33,426 nt of DNA. Source: Gemmatimonadota bacterium. GTDB taxonomy: Bacteria > Gemmatimonadota > Gemmatimonadetes > Longimicrobiales > Gaopeijiaceae. Below, in pieces: positions 2,534 through 26,672 of this stretch (position 1 is its first letter; every line of letters begins with the position of its first letter). Where the stretch lies: positions 1 through 33,426 of the forward strand of contig QJYK01000127.1 of NCBI GenBank assembly GCA_003248075.1, in the 5' to 3' direction. A program made the translations under genes and the position numbers. Below the pieces are notes generated by a model. The model was not told where the DNA came from. It was given only the letters and a program-made list of their open reading frames with translations, and did no database searches.

Positions 2534-2574
2534 CAGGAGCTGTGGCGGCTTGGGGAGTTCCGCCTCAGCTCCTG
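2534..2574 (-). terminator. Hairpin overlapping the stop codon of kinase 2
   Basis: An inverted repeat of 15 bases (2534-2548 and 2560-2574, 14 of 15 positions complementary) surrounds an 11-base loop. The stop codon of kinase 2 (2565-2567) lies inside one arm. It sits at the end of one gene and about 85 bases before the next start on the same strand, so it probably separates the two transcripts. There is no U-run after the stem, so it may be a stabilising 3' structure rather than a classical intrinsic terminator. Confidence 0.6.
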
Positions 2575-5186
2575 CCCCTCACCCTCGCGGCCAGCTCCTC
2601 GAACACGTTCAGCACGACGATCACCTCGCCCGGCTCGACCCGTCCGGGGTCGGCGAACAGGAGCGTGCCGGGCTCGGGCCCTACGGAATACGGGGTCCTG
2701 AACATCGTGGTCAGGGTGGAACCGAAGCGCCGCGCCGAGAAGAGCGCGGTCCGCTCCACCGACTCGAAGGTCGGGTCGGTGGCGACGCGCACGCTCCATA
2801 CGACCTCGTCGCGATCCCGGTAGTATAGCTCCGAGCCGCCGGGGCCCCAGAGGGGGCCGTGGCCCCCGTCCACCGACACCTGGATGCGGGTTCGGGCAGC
2901 AGGGAAGTCGACGACGTACACCTCCATCGCGCCGCTGTCGTTGGTCTGGAAGGCCAGCCAGCGGCCGTCGGGCGACAGCGCGGGCGAGTGCTCGTCTCCT
3001 CGACCCAGGTCGGTGAACAGGAAGGGATCCGACCCCGCGCTGAGGTCGACCCATCCCAGGTCTCCGTCCTCCATCCCCATCTCGAACATCAGCGCGAGCG
3101 TGTCGACGCCGCTCCCCAGAGCGAAATCGTAGATGCCCCGCTCGGTGCGCAGGACCAGCTCGGGAGGACGACTCAGGTCGGCCCGCTGCCGGAAGAGCGC
3201 GCCGCTCTCCGTCATTTCGCGCTCCGCCACCAGGAAGTAGACGTACCCGCCGTCCGGGCTCCAGCGGGGATTGAGCGTCGCGTCGCCCGAACGCCCCAGT
3301 CGGCGTGGCGGCCCACCGCGGAGATCCTGGACCCAGGTCTCCTCCCCGGTGCTGTACGCCACCGTGGCACGGTCCGGGGACAGCGTGACCATCTGCAGCG
3401 GAGCTCCCGCGGGGAGGTCCAGGTCGAGCACGGATTCCGTGCCGTCGGCGGAGAGGCGGACGAGCCCGGGAGGCATCGAGGATTCGCCGCGGAGCTGATA
3501 CACCAGCACGCCGGCGTCCGAGACGTCGTAGGCGTTGCCCAAGTACAGTCCCCCGGCGACCTGGAGCGGGGCGCCCCGCAGCTGCCCGGAGCGTGGATCG
3601 TACGGAACGGCCTGCAGGTCGTCGTCCTGCCCCACGAAGAAGAGGAATCCGCCCGCGTACCGGGGATTCCGACCGACCAGGACCTCCTCGAGCGCGCCGT
3701 CCTCCAACCGCACGCGGAAGATCGACCCTCCCCTGGGTAGCCAGCGCTCCAGCAAAGCATGCGTGCCCCCCGGCAGGGGTGCGCCCGCGGCGAACCTCTC
3801 GCCAGCCGACCGGTCAGCCTCCCGGACCGTGACGGTGTCTCCCGTGGCCAGGTCAATGCGGCGGATCGCGCCGGTGCTCACGGAGAGGAGCCCGTCGTCC
3901 GCCGTCCAGGTGCTGCCCGCCCCGCCACCGGGCTGTCTGAAGACGACGGTGGGAGCCCCCTCCTCGACAGGTAAGGACTGGAGGGTGGCGGGGGAGGTGG
4001 AGACCGCCAGGGTGAGCACCCGGTCGCCCGACGGTGAGAACATCGGGCGCCCCCTCGTTTCCGCTTCCGAGATCCGGCGCTCGTCCAGGGTCACGAGGTC
4101 GCGAAGCCGGAGCGCGTCGGTGGTGTCCCGGTACACGAGCTTGTCGCCGTCGGGAGAGATCGCGATCCCTCCCCGAGCCGGCTGATCGAGCTGGATCGAG
4201 AATCGCCGGACGGGCGTCTCCGGAGCCGAGCCGGCGCCCGACACGAGGTACCCGGCGAGCACGACCGACAGCGCGCTGGCCCCGAGCGCCACCGCCCGCC
4301 ACACCGGGCTCGTCGTCGCCGCTCGCGCCGCGCCTCCGACTCCGTGACGGAACGTCTCGTCCTCCAGCGCCGCGGCCAGCTCCTCGGCGCTCTCGAAGCG
4401 GTCGGCCGGGATCTTCTCCAGCGCCCTGAGGACCACCGCTTCCACGTGGGGCGGCACACTCGGGCGATGGGTGGTGGGACGCACCGGCTCGGCGGTGATG
4501 ATCTTGCCGAGGATCGCCTGCGCCGAGCCGCCAGTGTACGGCGGCTCACCCGTGAGCATCTCGTAGAGCACGCAGCCGAGCGCGTAGATGTCGGCTCCCG
4601 GGCCGGGCGCCCGGTCCGCGGTCGCCTGCTCCGGGCTCATGTAGTGCGGCGTGCCGAGGCTCATGCCGGTCTCGGTCAGGCGCCCGCCCCCCGCGTGGGA
4701 TACCGCCAGGGCGATTCCGAAGTCCGCCACGACCGGTTGCCCGTCCTGCAGGAGGATGTTCTCGGGCTTCACGTCGCGGTGGATCACCCCTTGCCGATGG
4801 GCGTAGCCGAGCGCCATGGCGACCGCGCTCGCGACCCGGACCGCCTCCCGCACGGGCAGCTCGCCCTCCCGGTCGAGGCGCTCCCGCAGGCTCTCCCCAT
4901 CGACGAAGGGCATCACGTAGAAGAGGAAGCCCTCTGCCTGACCCGAGTCGAAGAGCGGCAGGATGTGCGGGTGCTGGAGGTTCGCCGTCGTCTTGATCTC
5001 GGCCAGAAAGCGCTCGGCGCCCACCACGGCAGCCAGCTCGGGCTTCAAGACCTTGAGCGCGACCTTGCGCTCATGCTTGAGGTCGTCGGCCAGGTAGACC
5101 GTGGCCATCCCGCCCTCGCCGATCTCGCGGACAATCTCGTAGCGGCCCTTCAGGGCGGTGTTCAGGCGGGAGACGGCGTCGGGCAT
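2565..5186 (-). CDS. Ser/Thr protein kinase with C-terminal PD40 propeller (kinase 2)
   Basis: 873 residues. The kinase domain (about 16-280) has the GEGGMA loop (23-28), Lys45, HRDVKPEN with Asp138, DFG Asp155 and APE-like SPEQ. A membrane helix spans about 296-316. Propeller blades with the PD40 pattern follow (ISPDGDKLVY, WSPDGGYVYF, LSPDGRWLAF) and the protein ends in a short amphipathic tail. An upstream in-frame TTG at 5192 exists, but the ATG at 5186 is preferred: it lies eight bases after GAGGG, while the TTG would sit almost on that site. The gene carries the class A leader and is divergent from the ECF sigma gene at 5328, so the two may be co-regulated. All catalytic residues are present, so it should be active. 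Confidence 0.95.
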   Translation of the reverse strand: MPDAVSRLNTALKGRYEIVREIGEGGMATVYLADDLKHERKVALKVLKPELAAVVGAERFLAEIKTTANLQHPHILPLFDSGQAEGFLFYVMPFVDGESLRERLDREGELPVREAVRVASAVAMALGYAHRQGVIHRDVKPENILLQDGQPVVADFGIALAVSHAGGGRLTETGMSLGTPHYMSPEQATADRAPGPGADIYALGCVLYEMLTGEPPYTGGSAQAILGKIITAEPVRPTTHRPSVPPHVEAVVLRALEKIPADRFESAEELAAALEDETFRHGVGGAARAATTSPVWRAVALGASALSVVLAGYLVSGAGSAPETPVRRFSIQLDQPARGGIAISPDGDKLVYRDTTDALRLRDLVTLDERRISEAETRGRPMFSPSGDRVLTLAVSTSPATLQSLPVEEGAPTVVFRQPGGGAGSTWTADDGLLSVSTGAIRRIDLATGDTVTVREADRSAGERFAAGAPLPGGTHALLERWLPRGGSIFRVRLEDGALEEVLVGRNPRYAGGFLFFVGQDDDLQAVPYDPRSGQLRGAPLQVAGGLYLGNAYDVSDAGVLVYQLRGESSMPPGLVRLSADGTESVLDLDLPAGAPLQMVTLSPDRATVAYSTGEETWVQDLRGGPPRRLGRSGDATLNPRWSPDGGYVYFLVAEREMTESGALFRQRADLSRPPELVLRTERGIYDFALGSGVDTLALMFEMGMEDGDLGWVDLSAGSDPFLFTDLGRGDEHSPALSPDGRWLAFQTNDSGAMEVYVVDFPAARTRIQVSVDGGHGPLWGPGGSELYYRDRDEVVWSVRVATDPTFESVERTALFSARRFGSTLTTMFRTPYSVGPEPGTLLFADPGRVEPGEVIVVLNVFEELAARVRGRS

Positions 5187-5257
5187 GGGCAAGACCCTCG
5201 GAGGCTTGGTACGACGTGCCCAATGTTAGGCTCAGCCGCGCCTCCGCGGACAGGGTG
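5187..5257 (-). promoter_or_regulatory. Class A conserved leader of kinase 2
   Basis: Read on the minus strand the region holds CACCCTGTCC (5248-5257), then TAACAT (5223-5228) 19 bases later, then GGGCACGTCGTACCA, GAGGGTC and TTGCCC directly before the ATG. The same order of blocks is found at 9518-9586 and 12733-12802. CTGTCC and TAACAT could be the -35 and -10 of a promoter with a 5' leader of about 30 bases; the conservation is seen, the promoter role is inferred. Confidence 0.55.
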
Positions 5258-5327: not shown

Positions 5328-5927
5328 ATGAGCTCCGCGCCGTCATCGGGAGGCGGGGTCCCCACCGAGTCGAGCGCGGTGGCCGAGCGCTACCGAGCCG
5401 CGATCTACCGCTACGTCTCACGCCTGGTCCGTAGTCCGAGCCTCGCGGATGATCTCACGCAGGAGACGTTCCTTCGCGTCCATCAGCATCTCGACGAGCT
5501 GAAGGACCCGGGCGCGCTGGAGGCGTGGCTCTACCGGGTCGCCACGAACGTCTGTTACGACCACTTCCGGAGCCGGGACCATCATCGCCCCGGCCTGCCT
5601 CTGCCGGAGCAGGGCGACGAATGGGACCCGCCTGCCGCGGAAGCCGGCGCTCTCCGGCCGGACCAGCTCCTGGAGCAGAGCGAGATGAGCGATTGCGTGC
5701 TGCGCTTCCTCATCGAGCTGCCGGAGGCGCACCGTCGCGTGATGATCCTCCACGATCTGCAGGGCCACACCAATCCGGAGATCGCCCAGATGCTCGGCGT
5801 CTCGCTCCAGAACGTGAAGATCCGGCTGCACCGGGCTCGGGCCCACCTACGGGCCGAGCTGTCCTGGGGGTGCGACTTCTCCCGGGACGAGCGTGGCGTG
5901 TTCGTCTGCGAGCCGAAGAGCCGCTGA
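5328..5927 (+). CDS. ECF-type RNA polymerase sigma factor with two-cysteine C-terminal tail
   Basis: 199 residues. Region 2 is recognisable by DDLTQETFLRVHQHL and the following LYRVATNVCYDHFRSR. Region 4 is recognisable by LPEAHRRVMILHDLQGHTNPEIAQMLGVSLQNVKIRLHRA (split here as two helices of a helix-turn-helix). A tail after region 4 carries Cys182 and Cys194 around FSRDERGVFV. The start is set by AGAGGAGG at 5311-5318, nine bases before the ATG; a TTG further upstream at 5298 has no such site. The protein directs core polymerase to a small regulon. No anti-sigma gene is adjacent; the next gene encodes a cysteine-rich DGC protein. The paired cysteines suggest thiol or metal sensing by the sigma factor itself, which is inference. 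Confidence 0.93.
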   Translation: MSSAPSSGGGVPTESSAVAERYRAAIYRYVSRLVRSPSLADDLTQETFLRVHQHLDELKDPGALEAWLYRVATNVCYDHFRSRDHHRPGLPLPEQGDEWDPPAAEAGALRPDQLLEQSEMSDCVLRFLIELPEAHRRVMILHDLQGHTNPEIAQMLGVSLQNVKIRLHRARAHLRAELSWGCDFSRDERGVFVCEPKSR

Positions 5928-6087
5928 CGAGGCGCACCCGGGCGTATTCCCACTTCCCGCAGGTCCGACGAGGCCGGGTGTATCCTTTTCCCTCCCCGTG
6001 CCGTCCTCCCGAATAGAGGCAGGATCCGCCCTTCCGGTGGGCTGGCCAGCCTTGGCGTCCGTCAAGTCGCTTCAAGGGAGGAGCACC

Positions 6088-6585
6088 ATGAACGCAGAGC
6101 GTTCCACATTCCAGATCGAGGTCGAGGAAACCGCCGGTCATTGCCCGGCCGGGGACCGGTACGCGGAGGAGCAGATCCGTGAGGGACGGATCCCCGTGCT
6201 GTCCTGCGAGGGACCGTGCATCCGGGGCGAGATCGCCCGACAGGCAGCCAACCTGATCGGCAAGGAACCGGGCTTCGCCCGGGCCTGCCAGGGAGAGACC
6301 ATGGCGGTGCCGCACTCGACCATGGCCCGTTGGGTCCGCCAGTCGGAGGAGGTGGTGGTGCTGGACGGGTGCTTTCTCCGCTGCCAAGCGCGCATGATGC
6401 GCCGGATGCTCCGCCCGGACCAGCTCGTGGAGCTCGACGCGCTGCCCATGTACCGGAAATACACCGACCTCTTCGAGATCGACAGCGTGCCGGAGGACGA
6501 GCGCAACGGGGTCGCCGAGGAGGTGGCGCGCCTGATCATCACGGAGCTCGCGTCGAGGCACAGCGGCAGGAGCGCAGCGGATTGA
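6088..6585 (+). CDS. DGC-domain putative zinc-binding protein
   Basis: 165 residues, soluble, no signal peptide. It shows the pattern of the DGC family: an N-terminal cysteine pair in LSCEGPC (Cys40, Cys44) followed by RGEIARQAA, a middle cysteine in ARACQGE, and the name-giving DGC motif in VVVLDGCFLRCQ (Asp93, Cys95, Cys99). The family is thought to bind zinc through these cysteines; its reaction is not established. The start is supported by AAGGGAGGAG just upstream of the ATG. It lies 160 bases after the ECF sigma gene on the same strand and 50 bases before a lipoprotein gene, so the three may form one unit responding to a metal or thiol signal. Confidence 0.85.
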   Translation: MNAERSTFQIEVEETAGHCPAGDRYAEEQIREGRIPVLSCEGPCIRGEIARQAANLIGKEPGFARACQGETMAVPHSTMARWVRQSEEVVVLDGCFLRCQARMMRRMLRPDQLVELDALPMYRKYTDLFEIDSVPEDERNGVAEEVARLIITELASRHSGRSAAD

Positions 6586-6635
6586 CGAGCCGGTCTTCCC
6601 AGGCCGAGCGCAATGCGATGGAAGGAGGTGACGAC

Positions 6636-7220
6636 ATGAGTATCAGGATCAGTGTCTTGGGCGCTGCGTCGGTTTCGCTCCTGAGCGGCTGCATGATGGC
6701 GGGCGCGGCGTGGCACGGGGGCGGAGGTCACGCGATGGGCCCGATGGCTCCCTCGGGGAGCCGGACCGTCACCGAGGTCACTCGGACGGCGGAGGCGAGG
6801 AGTGGAGGCCTCACCCTCGGACTTTCCTTCGCAACCCCGGAGTGGGGCGATGCGGCGCTGATCGATGCCGCCTTGAGCGAGGCCGGCGTGGGTCGCGAGC
6901 CGACGTCCGGGGAGGTCCGGCTGAGTATCCGGACACCCGGGGGGAGGGTGGACCAGCTTGACATGGAGCCTCTTGGCCTGTCTCCGGGGGTAACACACCG
7001 GACACGCTACCGCTTTGCCGACGTGGGACTCTACCAGGTCACCGCGGAGGGGCGGGTGGGAAGCGGAGCCGACGTTCGAGCCGTGTCGGTGACCGCGGAG
7101 ACGGAGGTCGGCGGACAGATGCGCAGCCATGACGTCGACTGGGTCGCGCCCGCCGCCGTCCTGGGGGGACTGGGAATGGTCGCGATGATGGTCCTGATGA
7201 TGGGCGGCTCCGTACATTGA
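6636..7220 (+). CDS. Small lipoprotein with Ig-like region and C-terminal membrane helix
   Basis: 194 residues. The N-terminus is a lipoprotein signal with lipobox LSGC (Cys19). A glycine/histidine/methionine-rich linker follows (HGGGGHAMGPM). The middle part looks like a beta-sandwich: LTLGLSFATP, EVRLSIRTPGG, THRTRYRFADVGLYQV and VRAVSVTAETEVGG, reminiscent of YtkA/FixH-like periplasmic domains. The end is one hydrophobic helix rich in methionine (LGGLGMVAMMVLMMGG). A very strong ribosome site, AAGGAGGTG, precedes the ATG. The histidines and methionines and the DGC neighbour suggest metal handling, but no family is firmly recognised. Confidence 0.75.
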   Translation: MSIRISVLGAASVSLLSGCMMAGAAWHGGGGHAMGPMAPSGSRTVTEVTRTAEARSGGLTLGLSFATPEWGDAALIDAALSEAGVGREPTSGEVRLSIRTPGGRVDQLDMEPLGLSPGVTHRTRYRFADVGLYQVTAEGRVGSGADVRAVSVTAETEVGGQMRSHDVDWVAPAAVLGGLGMVAMMVLMMGGSVH

Positions 7221-7272: not shown

Positions 7273-8013
7273 ATGGGCAGGAAGAACGTGGGCCGGCTCG
7301 ATCGGACTCTGCGATTCGTGCTCGGAGGGGCGTTAGCGCCGATCGGCCGGTTCGCGCAGCGGCGTGATATCAGGCTCTTGGTGACGGGAGTATTGCTCGG
7401 GGCCGGAGTGATCCCGCTGGTGGCGCAGTCCACCTCCGACACGGCGGGTCGCGCGGCTTGCTTTCGAATCCGCCCGGCTCCTGCCTGCCGGAGCTACTGG
7501 CTCGTGGAGGTCCAGGGAGTGGTACCCGTGGCGTCGAGCACGCAGTCGGACGCGATCCGGGGCACCGTGTCGGTCTTCGACGACAACAATCTCGAATTCA
7601 ACCTGGGTCACATGCTCAATGTCGCCAGCGAGCTGTCCCTGGGCGGGGCGGTCACCCTCGGCAGCGGCTCGGGCGGCGTGCCAGACGGGGTGCGCGCGCG
7701 GGTCCGATGGTGGATGGCGCCCGCGGTGTCATTGGAGCTCGAGGGGGGGGTGCTCAGGACCAATCTCGGCTCGTGGGTCAGCTCCCCCCTTATGGGGCCG
7801 AGCATGGGCCTCCGCGCCAATCTCCTGGACGTGGGCGCCGTCTTGCTCCGCTATGACCGGGTCGACGTGCCGTCGGACGGTCGCTGGTCCGGCGGGCCCG
7901 CTTCCAGCCTGTCGCTGGGGGCGAGCGCTTCGAGTGGGCACGCTGTCGTGGTCAGCGCGATCATCGGCCTCGGACTGACGGTGTTGATGCTCACGTGGCC
8001 TGGCGGCACCTAG
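7273..8013 (+). CDS. Unknown envelope protein, beta-rich, with YgaP-like N-terminal motif
   Basis: 246 residues. The first 20 residues (NVGRLDRTLRFVLGGAL) resemble the start of the DUF2892/YgaP-type membrane domain, which normally ends after about 60 residues. Here a second hydrophobic stretch, LLVTGVLLGAGVIPLVAQ, could serve as a signal peptide or helix. The remaining part alternates polar and apolar residues in several stretches (SELSLGGAVTLGSG, GVRARVRWWM, VSLELEGGVL), as in outer-membrane barrels, and ends in a hydrophobic segment. AAGGG lies shortly before the ATG. It may be a fusion or simply a long signal region; function unknown. It lies between two lipoprotein genes in the same direction. 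Confidence 0.7.
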   Translation: MGRKNVGRLDRTLRFVLGGALAPIGRFAQRRDIRLLVTGVLLGAGVIPLVAQSTSDTAGRAACFRIRPAPACRSYWLVEVQGVVPVASSTQSDAIRGTVSVFDDNNLEFNLGHMLNVASELSLGGAVTLGSGSGGVPDGVRARVRWWMAPAVSLELEGGVLRTNLGSWVSSPLMGPSMGLRANLLDVGAVLLRYDRVDVPSDGRWSGGPASSLSLGASASSGHAVVVSAIIGLGLTVLMLTWPGGT

Positions 8014-8077: not shown

Positions 8078-9448
8078 ATGAAGGGCCGGTTTGCTGCTTG
8101 GTGGTCGGTGTGCCTCACGGCCGCCGTTCTCGCCTCATGTCAGGACGATATATCGTCCCCGAAGACCGTCGCGTCGGTGACGGTCGCTCCCTCGGCTCCC
8201 ACGGTGGTCGTGGGCACCACCGTCCAGTTGACCGCAACCGTGCGGGACGAGAGCGGCAACATCCTGACGGACCGCACGGTCGCGTGGTCGTCCGACGACT
8301 CGGCAGTTGCGAGTGCATCGAGCACCGGCCTTGTGACCGGAGTTACCGCCGGTGGCCCGGTCACGATCACCGCGACGAGCGAGGGTATGCGCGGGACGGC
8401 CGCGATCACCGTGGCGCCGGTCCCGGTGGCGTCGGTGACGGTCAGTCCCTCGGCTCCTACGGTGGTCGTGGGCACCACCGTCCAACTGACCGCAACCGTG
8501 CGGGACGAGGCCGGCAACAGCCTGACGGACCGCACGATCACCTGGTCGTCCGACGACTCGGCAGTCGCGAGTGTGTCGAGCATCGGCCTTGTGACCGGAG
8601 TTGGCACCGGTGGCCCGGTCACGATCACCGCGACGAGCGAAGGTAAGAGCGGGACGGCCGCGATCACCGTGGCGCCCGTGCCCAGTGACTTCATCCTGAC
8701 CGACATCCACGACCCATTCGACTTCATCGGCCACTGCCCCACGACAGACCCGGCGTACGCCGCCATCGAACAGGATTTCGAGTTCCTCAGCGACGGTCAG
8801 CCAAGCACGACTCAGATCACCTGCACCGAGCCGTATACCACGACTCCGGAGGGCGAGCTGACGGACGAGCTCGTCGCCGTGCAGACTTTGCGCATCGCCT
8901 ACTACATGAACGAGGGAAGCCAGGGCAAGCTGCCGTGGACGCCGCTCGGCTTGTACGACTGGATGAAGTCGCTGATCGCGGGCGTCAATTTCCGAAGCCA
9001 GAGCGGCAATTCGTACTGCTGCAACTTCATCAACGGGAAGTACTACTTCGGGACTTCGCGCAAGGAGTCGTCGGCTCTTTCCTACTACCGCGAGCTCGAT
9101 GGCCTGTTTGCCTGGCTGGGCTTGTTTCTTCACGAAGTCCGTCACCGATCAGGGCCGGGCCATACCACCGGCTGTCCGGCTTTCCCGCTTCCCACGGATC
9201 CTGCCGGGTGCGATGCAGAGTACGATCTGTCGAACCTGGGGTCGTACGGCGTACAGTACTGGTTCTTTGCCGGCGTGAGTCTGGGGAGGATCAACATCGG
9301 CCTGGGCTGCCAGGATCCCGCGACCGCGGAATACTGGGCCCGTCGGTTCGCGGGGCTCGCGAATGTCTACCCGGCGCGTTTCGTCGCGAACCCTCCGGCA
9401 ACGGTTGCACCGGCTCCACCGTATGGGGGTTCCTGCTTCACGCACTGA
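8078..9448 (+). CDS. Lipoprotein with two Big_2 Ig-like domains and a metzincin-like zinc motif
   Basis: 456 residues. The signal ends in lipobox LASC (Cys21), so the protein is lipid-anchored in the envelope. Two tandem bacterial Ig-like (Big_2) domains of 86 residues occupy about 31-202. The C-terminal region of about 250 residues holds HEVRHRSGPGH at 352-362, which fits HEXXHXXGXXH: zinc ligands His352, His356, His362, general base Glu353 and Gly359. No methionine follows the motif, so the Met-turn of classical metzincins is missing. There are eight or more cysteines in this part, suitable for disulfides. It is most likely a secreted metalloprotease or a degenerate relative. The ATG follows GAGGAGG at 8064-8070. 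No protease family is recognised beyond the motif. Confidence 0.85.
   Translation: MKGRFAAWWSVCLTAAVLASCQDDISSPKTVASVTVAPSAPTVVVGTTVQLTATVRDESGNILTDRTVAWSSDDSAVASASSTGLVTGVTAGGPVTITATSEGMRGTAAITVAPVPVASVTVSPSAPTVVVGTTVQLTATVRDEAGNSLTDRTITWSSDDSAVASVSSIGLVTGVGTGGPVTITATSEGKSGTAAITVAPVPSDFILTDIHDPFDFIGHCPTTDPAYAAIEQDFEFLSDGQPSTTQITCTEPYTTTPEGELTDELVAVQTLRIAYYMNEGSQGKLPWTPLGLYDWMKSLIAGVNFRSQSGNSYCCNFINGKYYFGTSRKESSALSYYRELDGLFAWLGLFLHEVRHRSGPGHTTGCPAFPLPTDPAGCDAEYDLSNLGSYGVQYWFFAGVSLGRINIGLGCQDPATAEYWARRFAGLANVYPARFVANPPATVAPAPPYGGSCFTH
8168..8683 (+). repeat. Tandem 258-base repeat encoding two Big_2 domains
   Basis: Copy 1 is 8168-8425 and copy 2 is 8426-8683. Hand alignment gives about 25 differences in 258 bases without gaps, around 90 percent identity. 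Many third codon positions are also identical, which points to a recent duplication or gene conversion within the gene. Confidence 0.9.
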
Positions 9449-10086: not shown

Positions 10087-12732
10087 TCACCGACCTTCGT
10101 TGCTCTCCCCGCCGTCTCGCAGCTGCGACACCCAGTTGCTCACGTACTTGAACTCCCTCATCGAGCCCGGCGGACCGCGCACGAAGACGAACTTGCCGTC
10201 GGGGGTCACGTCCCAGTTGTTCGCCGGCACGACGTCCCAATCCCCCCGGAAGAGCTCGATGGGATCGGGCGCGGGAAAGCCGCCCGTCACGTCCACGGCC
10301 ATGACGCGGTTGCCGGACAGGAAGAAGAGCTCTGTTCCGTCGCGCGACCAAAGCGCCTCCCGTCCGCCTTGGAGTGAGACCCGGCCCAGGTTCACCCATT
10401 CCGGCCAGGACGCCACGTAGATCTCGTCGGTCCCGGTGCCGTCGCTCGTATAGGCCAGGTACCGACCGTCTGGCGAGATCTGCGGGTTTTCCTCACGCGC
10501 CAGGCCCTCGAGAAGCGGGCGAGCCACGGAGTCACCACCGAGATCCAGCCAGCGCAGGTCGGTATCGGCGGTCGTGCTCCCGTCCCCCAGGGCGTTGACG
10601 AAGACCTCGCCCTTGGCTGAGATGGAGATCGGGAAGATCGCCTGACCCGGGCTGAGGGGCCGGCCGAGTGACAGGCTCGCGCGCTCGACGAGCACCAGCT
10701 CGGGGTCTCGCCAGACCGCGAAGCGGCGGCCGTCCGGATGCCACACCGGCATGATCGTGTGGTATTCGGAGCGGAGCAGCGGCTGGCTCAGGCCCCGCGC
10801 CACGTCGATGGCCCAGATCTCATCGGGGCCCGGCTCGACCGAGACGAGAATCTCCGATCCGTCCGGCGAGACGCTCGGGGCGCGATACCCGCGCCGGTCC
10901 GGCGTCAGGACCCGCTCCTCCCGACCCATGCGGTCGACCAGCACCACGGATCGCTCCAGCCCACCTTCGAGATAGACCAGATTCCCACGTCGATCGAACC
11001 TCGTCAGGAGAGCCTGGTTCCAAGGCGGGTTTCGGGGAGTCTCGAACGTCGTGACGGATGGGCCCGTCACGTCGAGGCGGTCCAGGTCGAAGGGGTATCC
11101 CACCAATCTCCCTCCCCTCCCCACCACCAGGTGACCGTCGACATACGTAGGCGACGACCCCCCGTCCAGGATACGCCGGGCCGTGAGGTCCGTCATATCG
11201 ATCGCCACGACGGTCGCCCGATTGTTGATGAGCATGTGACCGCCCCCCGGCAGGTGGTCGGGCCAACCCCAAAACGGATCCGCTTCGGAAGCGTCCGGCA
11301 TCCCATCCTCCGGCAGGCGAACCTCGATCAGCTGCGGTACCCCGCCCTCTTCGTCGACGCGGAAGAGGCCCTCGAGAGGGACCACAAACACGATCGAGCC
11401 GTCGGGCCCCCAACTGGCCCCCGCGGTGATCCGGTCGATCCGGGCCACGCGCTGAACCGAGCGTCCGTCGACCGACACCTTTCGGAGCTCCCCTTGGGCG
11501 AAGAAGCCGATCCAGTCCCCCGCACCCGGTGAGAAGAACGGGTGACGGGCCCCCTCCGTGCCGTCCAACGCCACCGCCTCGTCGCTGTCGAGGTCGCGCA
11601 CGTACAGCCGAGGCCGCCCCTCTTCGACGCCCACAAAAGCGAGCCGAGAACCGTCCTCGCTGAGATCGAAGGGGAAGGCGCCGAACGGAAGCTGAACCAC
11701 GTGGCCTTCCGGGTAGGGAATGGCGGTGCGGGTCAGGAGCGGCCCCCGTTCGGCCGACCGCCCGGTCCCGAGCCAAAGCCACAGCGCGAGAGCCGCCAGG
11801 CCGACCAGCGCGGCAGTATTGGCCATTCGCCCCCAGGCCCACCGCCCGGCCACCGGAGTCGCGTCCGCGCCCGCCTTCTCCGCTTCACGATGCCGGAAAG
11901 ACGGATCGCCCAGGGCGCGCGCGAGGTCGAGCGCTCCCGCGAACCGATCGGCCGGCAGCTTCTCCAGGGCCCTGGCGACGGCCGCGTCGACGTTGGCCGG
12001 CACCGAGCTCCGCTCCGCGTGTGCCGACGGAACTTCCCCCGTGATGATCTTGCCCAGCACGGCCTGTGGGGTGCTCCCCATGTAGGGCGGGTTGCCGACC
12101 AGCATCTCGTACAGCACGCACCCCAGCGCGTAGATGTCCGTCGCGGGGCCCACCTTCCGATCGCCCGTCGCCTGCTCCGGGCTCATGTAGTGGGGCGTGC
12201 CCAGGCTGAGGCCCGTCTCCGTCAGCCTGCTCCCGCCGCCGGCGCGGACGGCGAGCGCGATCCCGAAGTCGGAGACCACCGGCTTCCCGGCCTGCAGCAG
12301 GATGTTCGCGGGCTTGATGTCCCGGTGGATCACGCCCTGATCGTGGGCGTAGTGGAGCGCCTCGGCGACGTTCGTCGCGATTCTCACCGCCTCGTCGACC
12401 GGCAGCTGACGTTCGCGATCGAGTCGTGCCCTCAGCGTCTCCCCTTCCACGTAGGGCATCACGTAGTAGAGGAAGCCGTCCGCCTCGCCCGAGTCGAAGA
12501 GCGGCAGGATATGCGGGTGCTGGAGGTTCGCCGTCGTCCTGATCTCGGCCAGGAACCGATCGGCCCCGATGACCGCCGCCAGCTCGGGCTTGAGGACCTT
12601 CAAAGCGACCTTGCGCTGATGGCGCACGTCGCCGGCGAGGTAGACCGTAGCCATCCCGCCTTCGCCGAGCTCGCGAGTGATTTCGTAGCGGCCCTGCAGA
12701 GCGGCGTTCAGGCGGGTGACGGCGTCGGGCAT
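10087..12732 (-). CDS. Ser/Thr protein kinase with C-terminal PD40 propeller (kinase 3)
   Basis: 881 residues. The kinase domain shows GEGGMA (23-28), Lys45, HRDIKPAN with Asp138, DFG Asp155 and YMSPEQ. One helix follows (TAALVGLAALALWLWLG). The propeller contains PD40 blades such as LSEDGSRLAF, VSPDGSEILV, ISPDGRYLAY and VTPDGKFVFV. An in-frame ATG 36 bases upstream at 12768 lies inside the conserved leader; the ATG at 12732 is chosen because GGAGGG precedes it by seven bases and because MPDAV is the shared family start. It is divergent from the TolB-like/TPR gene at 12854 with 121 bases between, and converges on the kinase remnant. Confidence 0.95.
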   Translation of the reverse strand: MPDAVTRLNAALQGRYEITRELGEGGMATVYLAGDVRHQRKVALKVLKPELAAVIGADRFLAEIRTTANLQHPHILPLFDSGEADGFLYYVMPYVEGETLRARLDRERQLPVDEAVRIATNVAEALHYAHDQGVIHRDIKPANILLQAGKPVVSDFGIALAVRAGGGSRLTETGLSLGTPHYMSPEQATGDRKVGPATDIYALGCVLYEMLVGNPPYMGSTPQAVLGKIITGEVPSAHAERSSVPANVDAAVARALEKLPADRFAGALDLARALGDPSFRHREAEKAGADATPVAGRWAWGRMANTAALVGLAALALWLWLGTGRSAERGPLLTRTAIPYPEGHVVQLPFGAFPFDLSEDGSRLAFVGVEEGRPRLYVRDLDSDEAVALDGTEGARHPFFSPGAGDWIGFFAQGELRKVSVDGRSVQRVARIDRITAGASWGPDGSIVFVVPLEGLFRVDEEGGVPQLIEVRLPEDGMPDASEADPFWGWPDHLPGGGHMLINNRATVVAIDMTDLTARRILDGGSSPTYVDGHLVVGRGGRLVGYPFDLDRLDVTGPSVTTFETPRNPPWNQALLTRFDRRGNLVYLEGGLERSVVLVDRMGREERVLTPDRRGYRAPSVSPDGSEILVSVEPGPDEIWAIDVARGLSQPLLRSEYHTIMPVWHPDGRRFAVWRDPELVLVERASLSLGRPLSPGQAIFPISISAKGEVFVNALGDGSTTADTDLRWLDLGGDSVARPLLEGLAREENPQISPDGRYLAYTSDGTGTDEIYVASWPEWVNLGRVSLQGGREALWSRDGTELFFLSGNRVMAVDVTGGFPAPDPIELFRGDWDVVPANNWDVTPDGKFVFVRGPPGSMREFKYVSNWVSQLRDGGESNEGR

Positions 12733-12802
12733 GGGCAGACCCTCCGAAGCCTGGTACGCGTGCCCCATGTTAGGGGCTTCCGGGGCTCCCCGGACAGGGT
12801 GG
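12733..12802 (-). promoter_or_regulatory. Class A conserved leader of kinase 3
   Basis: On the minus strand: CACCCTGTCC, then TAACAT (12767-12772) 19 bases after CTGTCC, GGGGCACG, GTACCAGGC, GGAGGGTC and TGCCC before the ATG. This copy has lost two bases between the box and the start compared with kinase 2 (34 instead of 36). Together with the two other copies it defines a leader of about 70 bases that is better conserved than needed for a ribosome site alone. Confidence 0.55.
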
Positions 12803-16526: not shown

Positions 16527-19157
16527 ATGAGCCCCGACCCCATCACTCGCCTCAACGCGGCCCTCGAGGGTCGCTACCGCGTCGAGCGAAAGCTCGGCGA
16601 GGGCGGGATGGCCACGGTCTATCTCGCGCGCGACGAGAAACACAACCGCAGGGTCGCGCTCAAGGTGCTCCGACCGGAGCTGGCCGCGGTGGTGGGCGCC
16701 GAGCGATTCCTGGCCGAGATCCAGACGACGGCGAACCTCCAACATCCGCATATTCTGCCGCTGCACGACTCCGGCGAAGCGGACGGGCTGCTCTTTTTCG
16801 CGATGCCGTTCGTCGAGGGCGAGAGTCTGAGGGATCGCCTCGATCGCGAACGGCAGCTCCCCGTCGACGACGCGGTACGGATCGCCACCAACGTGGCCGA
16901 GGCCCTCGACTACGCACACCGCCACGGTGTGATCCACCGCGACATCAAGCCGGCCAATGTGATGCTGCACGACGGGAAACCCGTCGTGGCGGACTTCGGG
17001 ATCGCGCTCGCGGTGTCCTCGGGTGGCGAGAGTCGACTGACCGAGACAGGCATGAGCCTGGGCACTCCGCAATACATGAGCCCCGAGCAGGTGGCCGGGG
17101 ATCAGATCGGGGGACCCGCGACGGATGTCTATGCGCTCGGTTGTGTGTTGTACGAGATGCTCGTCGGTGAGCCGCCCTTCTCAGGGGGCTCGCGCCAGGC
17201 ACTGCTCGGACGGATCATCACCGGGGAGATCGAGCCGGTGGCGGCACGGCGGAAGAAGGTACCTCCGAACGTGGACGCCGCCGTGGCGATGGCGCTCGAG
17301 AAGGTACCTGCCGACCGCTTTCAAACCGCACAGGCCTTCGCCGCGGCGCTGAATTCGCCCGACTTCCGCCCCAGCTACTCGGGCACGACCCGGTCGGGCG
17401 CCACGAGTCGCCCCTTGCGGGGGCTTCGTTATGCGATCATCGCCGCAGCGCTGGCACTCGCTGTGTGGGTCGTGGCCAGCCTGTCCCCGGAACGAGACGA
17501 CCCAGCCTGGCAGATGGTGATCGACCTGCCGGACGGGACGGGTCTGGCATCGGAGATACGACTCCTACCGGACCGCTCCGGCTTGCTCTACCGAGGCGCG
17601 AACCCGGATGGGGATCCAATGCTCTGGGCCCTGACGTGGGCGGCCTTCGAACCGACCCGGAGCTCCCCGCTTCCCGGGACCGAACGTGTTCGGGGATTCG
17701 ACCTGTCCCCGGATGGACGGGAGGTGGCGCTGATCATCGGCGACTCCATTCGGGTCCGGTCGTTGGCGAGCCCCTCGTCGCGGCTCGTCGCCCCTGAAGG
17801 AGCGAAGTGCTGTCTGCGCTGGAACGAGGGATGGATCTACTATACAGATGACCAGAATGGACTGAGCCGCGTCCCCGTGGGGGGTGGAGGGACCGAGCGG
17901 CTGACGGTGAACACCGGACCGGAGCTCATCCATGCTTGGCCGGCGCCGCTGCCCGGCGGAGGGCGCTTCGTGTTCGAAAAGGCGGACCTCTTCGGCCTGA
18001 CCTCACGACTGACGCTCCTCGACGGAGGTTCGGGCGAGACCACCGACCTCGGTGAGGGTCGCCGTCCGTCGTCGCTGGGGGGCTTGATCTTCTTCACGAG
18101 CCGGAACGGGGCGACGCTCAGCGTCGCGGAGCTCGAAGGCTCGGCGCTGGGCAACCCGCTGACGATCGTCGAGGGGGCCACGGAGGACTTCTCCCCCGAA
18201 TCGCTGGGCACCTACGACCTCTCGTCCTCAGGCGATCTCGGCTATTGGGTCGGGACGATGGATTCGTTCAACGCGCGGCCTCCCGTCTGGGTGTCGAGGG
18301 ACGGTCGCGCGGTGCCCCTGTCTCCGCGGCTGACGGATTTTCCGAACTTCTTCCGGGAGTTGCGTCTGTCGCCCGACGGGCGGCGGATCGCCTTTCGGAC
18401 CCGTCAGACGTTGTACGTCGCAGAGCTACCGGACGGTCCGGTCTTCCCGGTGACGCGTGACGGAACCGTCAATCGGAATCCGCGGTGGACGGCAGACGGA
18501 AGCGGTCTGTACTACGTGTCGGACCGTCTCGCCCCGGGGGTGGCCGAGGACGCCCAGGTCTTCCTCACCAGGGCGGATGGGAGCGGTGAGCCGGAGGCCG
18601 TGGACCTCAGGGCCGCCGACGCGGTCCTCACTCCTGACGGGCGCACGTGGGTCTACCGGACGCAGAACCTGGGAGAGACCCAGGGCGACCTCATGATGCG
18701 CGGGAAGGAGCCCGGATCCCAGCCGGTGGCCCTCGTCGCGACGGGGGCCCGCGAGAGCTATCCGACACTGTCCCGGGACGGCAGATGGATCGCCTACTCT
18801 TCCGACATCGACGTCGTCCGTGAGGTCTACGTGCGCCCCTTCCCGGATGCCAGGGCGCGCCGCTGGAAGATTTCTCTGGACGGCGGAGACATGCCCCTCT
18901 TCTCTCCGTCCACGGACGAGCTGTTCTATGTGGATTCGGACGGAGCGATGCTGGCGGTGCAGTACGACGCCGAGCACTTCGAGGTCGTAGAGCGGAAGAT
19001 GCTCTTCGATGCCAGCGGGTACGCGTTGAACTCCGGCTACGACGTGTCGCGCGATGCGGATCGATTCGTCCTATCGCCGCGCGTGGAGATCGAGCCGAAC
19101 CGATGGGTAATGGTGTTCAACGCGCTCCGAGCGGTTGAAGAGCTTCGCGCGCGGTGA
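16527..19157 (+). CDS. Ser/Thr protein kinase with C-terminal PD40 propeller (kinase 4)
   Basis: 876 residues. GEGGMA loop (24-29), Lys46, HRDIKPAN with Asp139, DFG Asp156 and YMSPEQ identify an active Hanks-type kinase. A helix near 310 (YAIIAAALALAVWVVASL) leads to the propeller with blades LSPDGREVAL, LSPDGRRIAF, WTADGSGLYY and LSRDGRWIAY, then a REVYVRPFP segment shared with the paralogues and the tail FNALRAVEELRAR. It is the only intact kinase on the plus strand and lies just upstream of the SusC/SusD pair in the same direction (174 bases). A regulatory link to nutrient uptake is possible but not shown. The protein starts MSPDPITRLN, like kinase 5. Confidence 0.95.
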   Translation: MSPDPITRLNAALEGRYRVERKLGEGGMATVYLARDEKHNRRVALKVLRPELAAVVGAERFLAEIQTTANLQHPHILPLHDSGEADGLLFFAMPFVEGESLRDRLDRERQLPVDDAVRIATNVAEALDYAHRHGVIHRDIKPANVMLHDGKPVVADFGIALAVSSGGESRLTETGMSLGTPQYMSPEQVAGDQIGGPATDVYALGCVLYEMLVGEPPFSGGSRQALLGRIITGEIEPVAARRKKVPPNVDAAVAMALEKVPADRFQTAQAFAAALNSPDFRPSYSGTTRSGATSRPLRGLRYAIIAAALALAVWVVASLSPERDDPAWQMVIDLPDGTGLASEIRLLPDRSGLLYRGANPDGDPMLWALTWAAFEPTRSSPLPGTERVRGFDLSPDGREVALIIGDSIRVRSLASPSSRLVAPEGAKCCLRWNEGWIYYTDDQNGLSRVPVGGGGTERLTVNTGPELIHAWPAPLPGGGRFVFEKADLFGLTSRLTLLDGGSGETTDLGEGRRPSSLGGLIFFTSRNGATLSVAELEGSALGNPLTIVEGATEDFSPESLGTYDLSSSGDLGYWVGTMDSFNARPPVWVSRDGRAVPLSPRLTDFPNFFRELRLSPDGRRIAFRTRQTLYVAELPDGPVFPVTRDGTVNRNPRWTADGSGLYYVSDRLAPGVAEDAQVFLTRADGSGEPEAVDLRAADAVLTPDGRTWVYRTQNLGETQGDLMMRGKEPGSQPVALVATGARESYPTLSRDGRWIAYSSDIDVVREVYVRPFPDARARRWKISLDGGDMPLFSPSTDELFYVDSDGAMLAVQYDAEHFEVVERKMLFDASGYALNSGYDVSRDADRFVLSPRVEIEPNRWVMVFNALRAVEELRAR

Positions 19158-23948: not shown

Positions 23949-26672
23949 TCACCCACCCAGGCGGCGTCGAATCAGCGCTTCGAGACCGTCCACCACGTGG
24001 TAGGTCGGTCCCTCCGCCTCGGAAGCTCGGGGGCGGAACATGAGAAAGCGCTCCCCGTCCTCCGTCACGTCATAGTACGTATAGAATATGCTCTCCCAGA
24101 CTACGCCTTCCGGGAGAGGAAACAGGTCCGTCTCATCGATCACCCGGAATCCGGCGCTCGTGTCTACACGGAGCGAGACCATCTGCGGCGGTTCGGTCGC
24201 TCCGTCGGCACCTTCGGTCGGCGGCCGCACGAAGTAGAGCTCTCTGCCGTCGGACGACCAGTGTGGCTGGTACCCCTCGGCAGTCCAGACCACTGGACCG
24301 ATGCCGGGATAGCTCCGAACGTGGAGGGCGCGGGAGCCCCTCCTATCGAAGCGGGGGCCGCTCTCGTTGGTGAGGTAGGCCAGGTACCGACCATCCGGTG
24401 ACAGAGATGGCGTCGCGTACCCGATCGAGTCGTGCACCAGGAGCGGCTGCGGACTGCCGCCCGGTTGGGCTCGATAGAAGTCCGGCGTAGTGGGCTGGTA
24501 CCCCGTGCGGAAGAAGAGCCATTCGCCGTCCGGGGGCTCCGGAAATCCTTCCACGATCCCACGCACGTGATCGACGAGCAGCTCGGGAAAGCCGGTCCCG
24601 TCGATCGGGGTGCTCCAGAGGTCCCAGCTCGCGCCTCCGGACGTGTCGGCCGTGGAGATGATCCTGGAGCCGTCCAACGACCAGCTCACGGGACCACGGA
24701 CGGACGGAAGCGGAAAGGATGTCCCTCCGAGCACCTTGATGGAAACGCGCTCCTCGCCGTTCGGCAACCTACCCGAGATCGCGACGCGTCCGTCCCCCGG
24801 CGCCAGTTGGGCCCACCCGATACGAAGCAGCTCGGGACTCCAGGTTGGCTCGAACGGCGATACACGCCCCGAGCGATCGACCCAGATCAGCTCGTCTCCC
24901 GCGTCGAACTCTCTGGAGTAGACCAGCCGTCCTGAACCCGCGAGCGCGATGGCGGCCCGGCGACCCGTAGGCGGAGCCAGATCCGAGAGCAACGGAACGA
25001 CAAGCCCGGTGATCGTGAGGGCTCGCTCGTCGAACGGCGCGCCCATCAGGTCACCATCCGTCGTCGCGAACACGAGGTACCCCGCCGTCAGGTACATGCC
25101 GCGCACCCCCCGCACGAGGCCCCGGAGCTGTCCAGACCGTAGATCGAGGACGCCAACCGAGTCCGCCGACTCCCCGCTCCTGTCGATGCTCACGAGCAGG
25201 CCTCGTCCTCCCGGTAGGGCTTCGGGAGCGCCGAATCTGACCTCCCCGGAAGCCTCGAGAACCACCTCGGTGGCGCTTTCCCGCGTCGAGGCGATCCTGC
25301 GCAAGCTGTTGTTGTCGTACACGGAGATGTAGTAGACGTACCCGTCGGGTCCCCAGCTCGCACCCGCCCCATCGCTCGCCCCCCCGACGAGTGTGAGGGG
25401 AGGGCCTCCCTCGACGGGCACCCAGCGGATGCCGAACCGGGGACGGGAGGCGACGAAGCCGAGTTTGCTCCCATCGGGCGAGAAGAACGGCACCCGCGCG
25501 CCCTCCGTGCCCGGGACGGGGATGGAGGCCTCGTCGTCCCGGGGGCGAAGCCAGATTCGCCGCGTTCCGTCTTCGTGGACGCGGACGTAGGCAAGTCGCG
25601 AGCCGTCGGGCGACATGGCCAATGTCATGCTCGAGAACTCGTCAGGCGTCGGCGCCTGCCCCTCCTCGAAGGTCAGCCGGTAACGGGCCAGGGGTGTCGG
25701 GGACGCCCCGGACGGGCGCCATTCCAGCACCAGTCCCCCGATCGCGAGGAGGAGGAGCGCCGTAGCGCCCAATGCCACGCGCTTCCAGAGCCTCGCCTCC
25801 GTCGCGGCTTCCCTGGTGTCCCGGTAGCGGAACGCCGGATTCGCGAGCGCCTCCTTGAACTCGGAGAGGCGGGAAAACCGGTCCGCGGGGATGGCCTCCA
25901 GAGCGCAGCGGATGGCCGCGTCGACGTTCCGCGGGACCGTACGCCGCTCGTCCGTCACCGAGATCGGCTTGCCCGCGATGATCTTGCCGAGCACGGCGTG
26001 GATGGTCGCGCCCTGATAGGGCGGCTCGCCGGTGAGCATCTCGTAGAGGACGCACGCCAAGGAGTAGAGGTCGCTCCGCGGGCCGACGATGCCGTCACCG
26101 GTCGCCTGCTCGGGGCTCATGTAGTAGGGCGTCCCGATCGCGACGCCCATCTCGGTAGCCCCGTCCGGCGCGCCCAGAGTCCCCGACACCCGCGCGATAC
26201 CGAAGTCGGCTACGACCGGATTGCCGTCGACCATGAGCACGTTCGCCGGCTTGACGTCACGGTGGATCACGCCCTGGCGGTGCGCGTAGTCCAACGCATC
26301 GGCGACACTCGTCGCGATCCGCACGGCTTCTGCCACCGGAAGCTGCTTCTCGCGATCGAGTCGATCCCTCAGACTCTCGCCTGCGACGTAGGGCATCACG
26401 TAGTAGAGAATGCCGTCCGTTTCGCCCGAGTCGTGCAGCGGGAGGATGTTGGGGTGTTGGAGGTTCGCGGTCGTCTTGATCTCGGCGAGGAATCGATCCG
26501 CACCGACCGCTTCGGCGTACTCGGGCTTGAGGACCTTCAGGGCGACGGATCGCTCGTGCTTGGTGTCCTCCGCGAGATACACGCGCGCCATTCCACCTTC
26601 GCCGAGCTTGCGCTCGATGCGGTAGCGGCCTCCGAGGGCCGCGTTGAGGCGGGTGATGGGGTCTGCGCTCAC
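23949..26672 (-). CDS. Ser/Thr protein kinase with C-terminal PD40 propeller (kinase 5)
   Basis: 907 residues from the GTG at 26672. The frame is open up to 26747, but GTG is chosen because MSADPITRLNAAL then aligns with kinase 4 and because the class B element sits right before it. The kinase domain has GEGGMA (24-29, followed by RV instead of the TV of its paralogues), Lys46, HRDVKPAN with Asp139, DFG Asp156 and YYMSPEQ. A helix (VALGATALLLLAIGGLVL) precedes the propeller with blades MSPDGSRLAY, FSPDGSKLGF, LSPDGRYLAY and WSSDGRELYF. It converges on SusD with only 31 bases between. All catalytic residues are intact. Confidence 0.95.
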   Translation of the reverse strand: MSADPITRLNAALGGRYRIERKLGEGGMARVYLAEDTKHERSVALKVLKPEYAEAVGADRFLAEIKTTANLQHPNILPLHDSGETDGILYYVMPYVAGESLRDRLDREKQLPVAEAVRIATSVADALDYAHRQGVIHRDVKPANVLMVDGNPVVADFGIARVSGTLGAPDGATEMGVAIGTPYYMSPEQATGDGIVGPRSDLYSLACVLYEMLTGEPPYQGATIHAVLGKIIAGKPISVTDERRTVPRNVDAAIRCALEAIPADRFSRLSEFKEALANPAFRYRDTREAATEARLWKRVALGATALLLLAIGGLVLEWRPSGASPTPLARYRLTFEEGQAPTPDEFSSMTLAMSPDGSRLAYVRVHEDGTRRIWLRPRDDEASIPVPGTEGARVPFFSPDGSKLGFVASRPRFGIRWVPVEGGPPLTLVGGASDGAGASWGPDGYVYYISVYDNNSLRRIASTRESATEVVLEASGEVRFGAPEALPGGRGLLVSIDRSGESADSVGVLDLRSGQLRGLVRGVRGMYLTAGYLVFATTDGDLMGAPFDERALTITGLVVPLLSDLAPPTGRRAAIALAGSGRLVYSREFDAGDELIWVDRSGRVSPFEPTWSPELLRIGWAQLAPGDGRVAISGRLPNGEERVSIKVLGGTSFPLPSVRGPVSWSLDGSRIISTADTSGGASWDLWSTPIDGTGFPELLVDHVRGIVEGFPEPPDGEWLFFRTGYQPTTPDFYRAQPGGSPQPLLVHDSIGYATPSLSPDGRYLAYLTNESGPRFDRRGSRALHVRSYPGIGPVVWTAEGYQPHWSSDGRELYFVRPPTEGADGATEPPQMVSLRVDTSAGFRVIDETDLFPLPEGVVWESIFYTYYDVTEDGERFLMFRPRASEAEGPTYHVVDGLEALIRRRLGG

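Follow-up and report, generated by a model that had tools for sequence, protein, structure and literature searches.

A conserved circuit built on an extracytoplasmic function (ECF) sigma factor is encoded on contig QJYK01000127.1 of a Gemmatimonadota bacterium (GCA_003248075.1), whose 33,426 nucleotides are here called the window. On the + strand, the sigma factor gene SIG (5328–5927) is followed by a DGC-domain gene (6088–6585) and a lipoprotein gene (6636–7220). The circuit is real, and it is probably a variant of the self-sensing kind of ECF sigma factor. Judging from sequence comparison, we somewhat favour a self-contained arrangement in which SIG would sense through its own cysteines and drive the DGC–lipoprotein operon. 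DGC here denotes a cysteine-motif family (PF08859), not diguanylate cyclase. The window is contig 75 of a 344-contig, 5.6 Mb genome, labelled G000 in the genome set; L-numbers denote loci and G-numbers genomes of the comparison set, and WIN is the window locus. Gene maps were drawn from a composition score over reading frames and are approximate.

Linkage of sigma factor and DGC genes

A contig scan with the DGC protein returned 31 loci, which with the window and two further loci gave 34 distinct DGC loci (L019, L021 and L028 lie on the same contigs as L014–L016 and were counted once, as L014–L016). A cysteine-tailed ECF sigma factor was encoded within 4.5 kb of DGC in 16 of the 34. From the 26 ECF-like matches over the 5.6 Mb of the window genome, chance linkage would be expected at about 4% of loci, and the observed linkage exceeds this. 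The hosts of sigma-linked DGC genes belong to Gemmatimonadota, Acidobacteriota, Nitrospirota and Pseudomonadota, and the search for a sigma–DGC neighbourhood suggested by the original prediction thus found one conserved across phyla. DGC proteins of the window type are rare in the genome samples, being present in 4 of 395 genomes of the phylum and in 3 of 369 genomes of one proteobacterial class. Two related sigma factors (L100 and L101) were found without DGC.

The putative promoter and its regulon

A promoter-like pattern accompanies the linkage. Within the 220 nt preceding DGC, YGTATCY-N15-17-CGTC was found in 10 of the 16 sigma-linked loci vs none of the 18 unlinked loci (Fisher p = 6e-5). 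Three more sigma-linked loci carry a variant, with one mismatch in L018, a position at the operon head in L024 and one slightly further upstream in L033, which brings the count to 13 of 16. The window site, TGTATCC-N16-CGTCC at 5979–6006 (+ strand), is the single exact match in the window. The promoter is missing from L023, L030 and L088, whose sigma factors differ in region 4, as expected if promoter and sigma factor co-evolve. When spacers of 14–18 were allowed in the 32 loci first scanned, 16 of the 19 matches had a spacer of exactly 16, and all 16 stood at sigma/DGC units; ten Markov shuffles gave 0–7 matches.

Across 13 genomes, the pattern matched 48 times vs 25 for the reversed control, and 16 of the 48 matches were at sigma/DGC units, which points to a small and local regulon. 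In L101, the promoter precedes a CMD gene that is followed by the sigma gene. The other genome-wide sites inspected fall within reading frames and are apparently chance matches, with the exception of one on contig 523 of G404 (L078), where this promoter is followed by a Cys-rich PAS-like protein, a possible second target.

This promoter in front of DGC is new. Since it marks the sigma-linked DGC loci, and also the lipoprotein homologue in G354, SIG most likely drives the predicted DGC–lipoprotein operon. The comparative footprint is strong, and we are highly confident that SIG would target this promoter class at the operon and at hardly any other place in the genome.

Cysteines of the sigma factor

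SIG starts with ATG at 5328, and its stop codon ends at 5927. The 199-residue product has Pfam matches to Sigma70_r2 (residues 20–84, 2.1e-19) and Sigma70_r4_2 (residues 122–174, 1.4e-16); with regions 2 and 4 only, it is an ECF (group IV) sigma factor. Behind region 4 lies a 19-residue C-terminal tail, GCDFSRDERGVFVCEPKSR (5868–5924), in which Cys182 and Cys194 are found where the original prediction had placed them. A third cysteine, Cys123 (codon 5694–5696), opens region 4 in the motif EMSDC. These three are the only invariant cysteines in an alignment of 11 sigma sequences (A1). A broader comparison of 36 sequences found Cys123 and Cys182 in 31/31 tailed sigma factors vs 0/5 ordinary ECFs, and an additional tail cysteine follows the Cys182 position in 29 of the 31; the exceptions are the Priestia SigZ and the L015 sigma factor, whose tail is broken by an unread base. 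The proposed alignment of tails therefore bears out the conservation. An AlphaFold2 model of SIG (pTM 0.42) places the tail cysteines in a predicted beta hairpin (182–186/192–196; pLDDT ~80–87). As first claimed, no anti-sigma gene lies beside SIG: its neighbours are a kinase-like gene of opposite orientation (2565–5192) on the upstream side and DGC on the downstream side.

These features outline a possible mechanism. Without an anti-sigma partner, SIG would take RNA polymerase to the YGTATCY-N16-CGTC promoters before the DGC–lipoprotein operon. Its activity would be set by Cys123, where region 4 begins, and by Cys182 and Cys194 in the hairpin; on binding a thiophilic metal(loid) or forming a disulfide, these cysteines may alter the contact of region 4 with RNA polymerase or DNA. 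Control of SIG by its own cysteines is probable, with direct sensing as its putative form. The DGC protein may bind the metal(loid) or hand it on; the lipoprotein presumably acts at the envelope.

DGC protein and lipoprotein

The gene next to SIG had been called DGC-type, and its 165-residue product indeed matches PF08859 at 50.4 bits, above the gathering cut-off of 27. It is the single DGC gene of the window genome. Six cysteines (19, 40, 44, 67, 95 and 99 in the window protein) are invariant in an alignment of 25 of the 34 DGC proteins (A2) and, on sequence grounds, would fit the binding of a metal such as zinc. The window type is a subfamily of PF08859, marked by two invariant motifs, CEGPCIRG and DGCFLxC, and by an additional N-terminal cysteine. 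A sequence search of the PDB detected no solved relative of DGC, and a search of plasmids with the protein gave no match. Foldseek returned no strong PDB match for the DGC model (best E 3.7e-3). No VIA-align row for the model reached Z 8, and the rows were a mixture (low-molecular-weight phosphatase/ArsC, lumazine synthase and sugar isomerases), so that no function was drawn from them.

The third gene encodes a 194-residue lipoprotein with the lipobox LLSGC followed by MMAGAAWHGGGGHAMGPMAP. The lipobox agrees with the description as a His/Met-rich lipoprotein, while the His/Met enrichment turned out to be only mild. It had no match in Pfam or NCBIfam, and just two of the 385 genomes sampled from the phylum, the window's own counted, encode it. 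The other is G354, whose homologue (L015) is 51% identical and lies beside DGC and the sigma gene. In that genome the promoter stands ahead of DGC, the lipoprotein homologue and a small Cys protein; its site before the homologue is the strongest sign that the lipoprotein is part of the unit. The complete sigma–DGC–lipoprotein set was found in this one other genome only, with the gene order changed. Of the small metal or thiol stress unit originally envisaged, the linkage, the conserved cysteines and the metal/thiol theme have held, and the three-gene set has proved to be of narrow occurrence. Unconserved cysteines and a lack of linkage elsewhere had been named as grounds for dropping the idea; the cysteines are conserved, and the sigma and DGC genes are linked.

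Arsenic and metal genes near the sigma loci

We counted 17 sigma loci of the DGC clade (WIN, L015, L017, L018, L020, L022, L023, L024, L027, L030, L031, L032, L033, L035, L040, L100 and L101), and arsenic genes were present at six of them. The gene for the arsenite methyltransferase ArsM lies beside the sigma gene in L024, L027, L030, L040 and L100, and that for ACR3 in L024, L027, L031 and L100. In the 17 genomes searched for ArsM, 5 of the 8 genes above the cut-off were within a few kb of a DGC/sigma unit. Further neighbours include CMD (AhpD-type) genes and, at the L027 sigma gene, a cation-efflux gene; in L014, a DGC gene without sigma adjoins an AcrB-type pump and an E1-E2 ATPase. With arsenic genes such frequent neighbours of its relatives, SIG is probably a built-in sensor of toxic metals or metalloids, and the likely signal is arsenic or some other thiophilic metal(loid). 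Three thiolates are a typical As(III) site. Since this site type coincides with relatives in arsenic methylation and efflux clusters, trivalent arsenic is our best guess for the wider family, at about even confidence; for the window organism itself, we propose it only tentatively.

Alternative explanations

Several observations weigh against our interpretation. No Cys-tailed ECF lies near DGC in 18 of the 34 loci, some of them on short contigs, and, with two mismatches allowed, the promoter pattern turns up in the window by itself at least as often as chance predicts. ACR3 was not found in the window genome, nor in G354. The ArsM-like match of the window genome (contig 137, 2221–2802; L099) is below the family cut-off and carries one in-frame TGA. 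No ars gene was detected in the stretches around the Priestia SigZ, the Vibrio SigZ and a Rhodococcus relative, or in the short flanks of L116–L118. As a separate observation, similar TGA-bearing ArsM-like matches in other genomes may be selenoproteins.

The same circuit may respond to zinc, copper/silver or general thiol oxidation, the arsenic neighbours reflecting other lineages, which is close to the view of the original prediction. The missing ACR3 in both genomes that hold the full gene set is in its favour, as are the pump and ATPase beside the sigma-less DGC of L014 and the cation-efflux gene at the L027 sigma gene; the repeated linkage of relatives to arsM, ACR3 and arsH speaks for arsenic, and we regard a different signal as rather unlikely. 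The tail could also be purely structural, with control exerted on transcription of the SIG gene, for example by an FNR-type regulator. Boxes of the form TTGAC-N4-ATCAA, which we take to be FNR/Dnr-like, closely precede the sigma gene in L017, L020 and L022 and, in weaker form, in L027, which suggests anaerobic or nitric oxide control of the sigma gene in Betaproteobacteria. However, no such box was seen before SIG in the window, and the cysteines are invariant beyond the needs of the fold, so that we consider this explanation unlikely, somewhat more so than a non-arsenic signal.

A role for DGC as a soluble anti-sigma factor or co-sensor that feeds back on SIG is suggested by its being Cys-rich, a conserved target and a neighbour of SIG; it is improbable, given that DGC occurs without the sigma gene in 18/34 loci and the sigma gene without DGC in L100 and L101. 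That the genes are chance neighbours with no functional link would suit a three-gene set that recurs, in changed order, in one other genome of the phylum sample, but the sigma–DGC linkage and the promoter footprint in several phyla contradict it and leave it with next to no probability.

Neighbouring genes in the window

Two + strand genes (7273–8013 and 8078–9448) follow the lipoprotein gene at short distances and possibly continue the operon. The product of the former has a weak YgaP-like transmembrane match, and that of the latter contains Big_2 domains. Five large Ser/Thr kinase-like genes, read by eye, surround the unit (1–2448, 2565–5192, 10087–12768, 16527–19154 and 23952–26591). In other loci, a small membrane protein recurs beside DGC or SigZ (L023, L030, L088 and L118), often beginning with a short Cys/Met stretch.

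Comparison with known sigma factors

In a literature search for which subscription papers were mostly outside the scope, nothing was found that joins an ECF sigma factor and a DGC domain, that treats SigZ with a C-terminal extension and cysteine, or that describes an arsenic-responsive ECF sigma factor. Among the matches listed for ECF sigma factors with arsM or arsenite, none was seen to describe such a sigma factor; co-mentions of SigZ with arsenic look incidental, and matches for the PF08859/COG4273 DGC domain apparently concern diguanylate cyclases or are unrelated in some other way.

The best NCBIfam model for SIG is SigZ (TIGR02959 / PRK09637), which it matches at 114.7 bits, below the curated equivalog cut-off of 168.65, and SIG is not assigned to SigZ. 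To our knowledge, SigZ-type factors have no assigned role. Like SIG, SigZ is an ECF with cysteines at the Cys123 and Cys182 positions, a similar tail and no anti-sigma factor seen. Unlike SIG, true SigZ lacks the Cys194 position, mostly has a cysteine at the very end and falls in a separate tree group. In the tree, from which L023 (partial) and L118 were left out, the SigZ clade (100/99) is separate from the DGC-linked clade (89/81), possibly with ordinary ECFs between them, and the window sigma factor pairs with that of G354 (100/99). The shared cysteines are therefore either old or were gained twice.

SigZ also keeps company with arsenic genes. In L088, the sigma factor passes both cut-offs and is a true SigZ; the genes there run SigZ–arsM–DGC. 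A search of 61 genomes of relatives gave six SigZ matches, four over the cut-off and all six beside arsenic genes: arsM in L088, L111 (cut by the contig end and read by eye), L112 and L113, an ArsI/CadI-like gene in L114 and an ArsD cluster in L115. On plasmids, a SigZ-like ECF is encoded between arsH and arsD in three Enterobacteriaceae records (L125, L126 and L127) and between arsH and ACR3 in a fourth; another lies in an ars cluster in Sulfuricella. The arsH–sigma–arsD stretch matches 1,394 of 72,556 plasmid records, 1,208 of them with at least 80% coverage, many being near-copies that count as few events. The plasmid ars factors share Cys123, Cys182 and a tail cysteine with SIG, but their target genes are arsH, arsD, arsA and ACR3, not DGC. 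The arsH/arsD copies are annotated as a generic sigma-70 factor or SigL.

It is conceivable, though we lean towards doubting it, that DGC-linked Cys-tailed ECFs and SigZ are of one kind, which would use conserved thiolates to bind As(III) or methylarsenite directly and would activate genes for arsenic methylation and efflux as well as DGC genes. If so, the orphan SigZ would gain a job, and ars operons on more than 1,000 enterobacterial plasmids a sigma-factor layer. The position of SigZ beside arsM and between arsH and arsD gives it a directly testable role, and the circuit gives the DGC family a physiological setting. With its single hairpin, its three cysteines, a defined promoter and targets close by, so compact a sensor would readily lend itself to testing how a sigma factor responds to metal.

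Only a few sigma factors are believed to detect a chemical through residues of their own, and the copper-responsive CorE is the model. CorE-like ECFs (former ECF44, now ECF238) resemble the proposed circuit in their mode of action: they likewise have no anti-sigma factor, and cysteines after region 4 are thought to sense a metal, which would set their activity by its presence or redox state (PMC8999054). They are described with a cysteine-rich C-terminal domain; SIG has two cysteines in its 19-residue tail, and Cys123 besides. As described there, they also carry a CXC motif in the linker, which is absent from residues 85–122 of SIG, and we do not claim membership of that group for SIG (PMC8999054).
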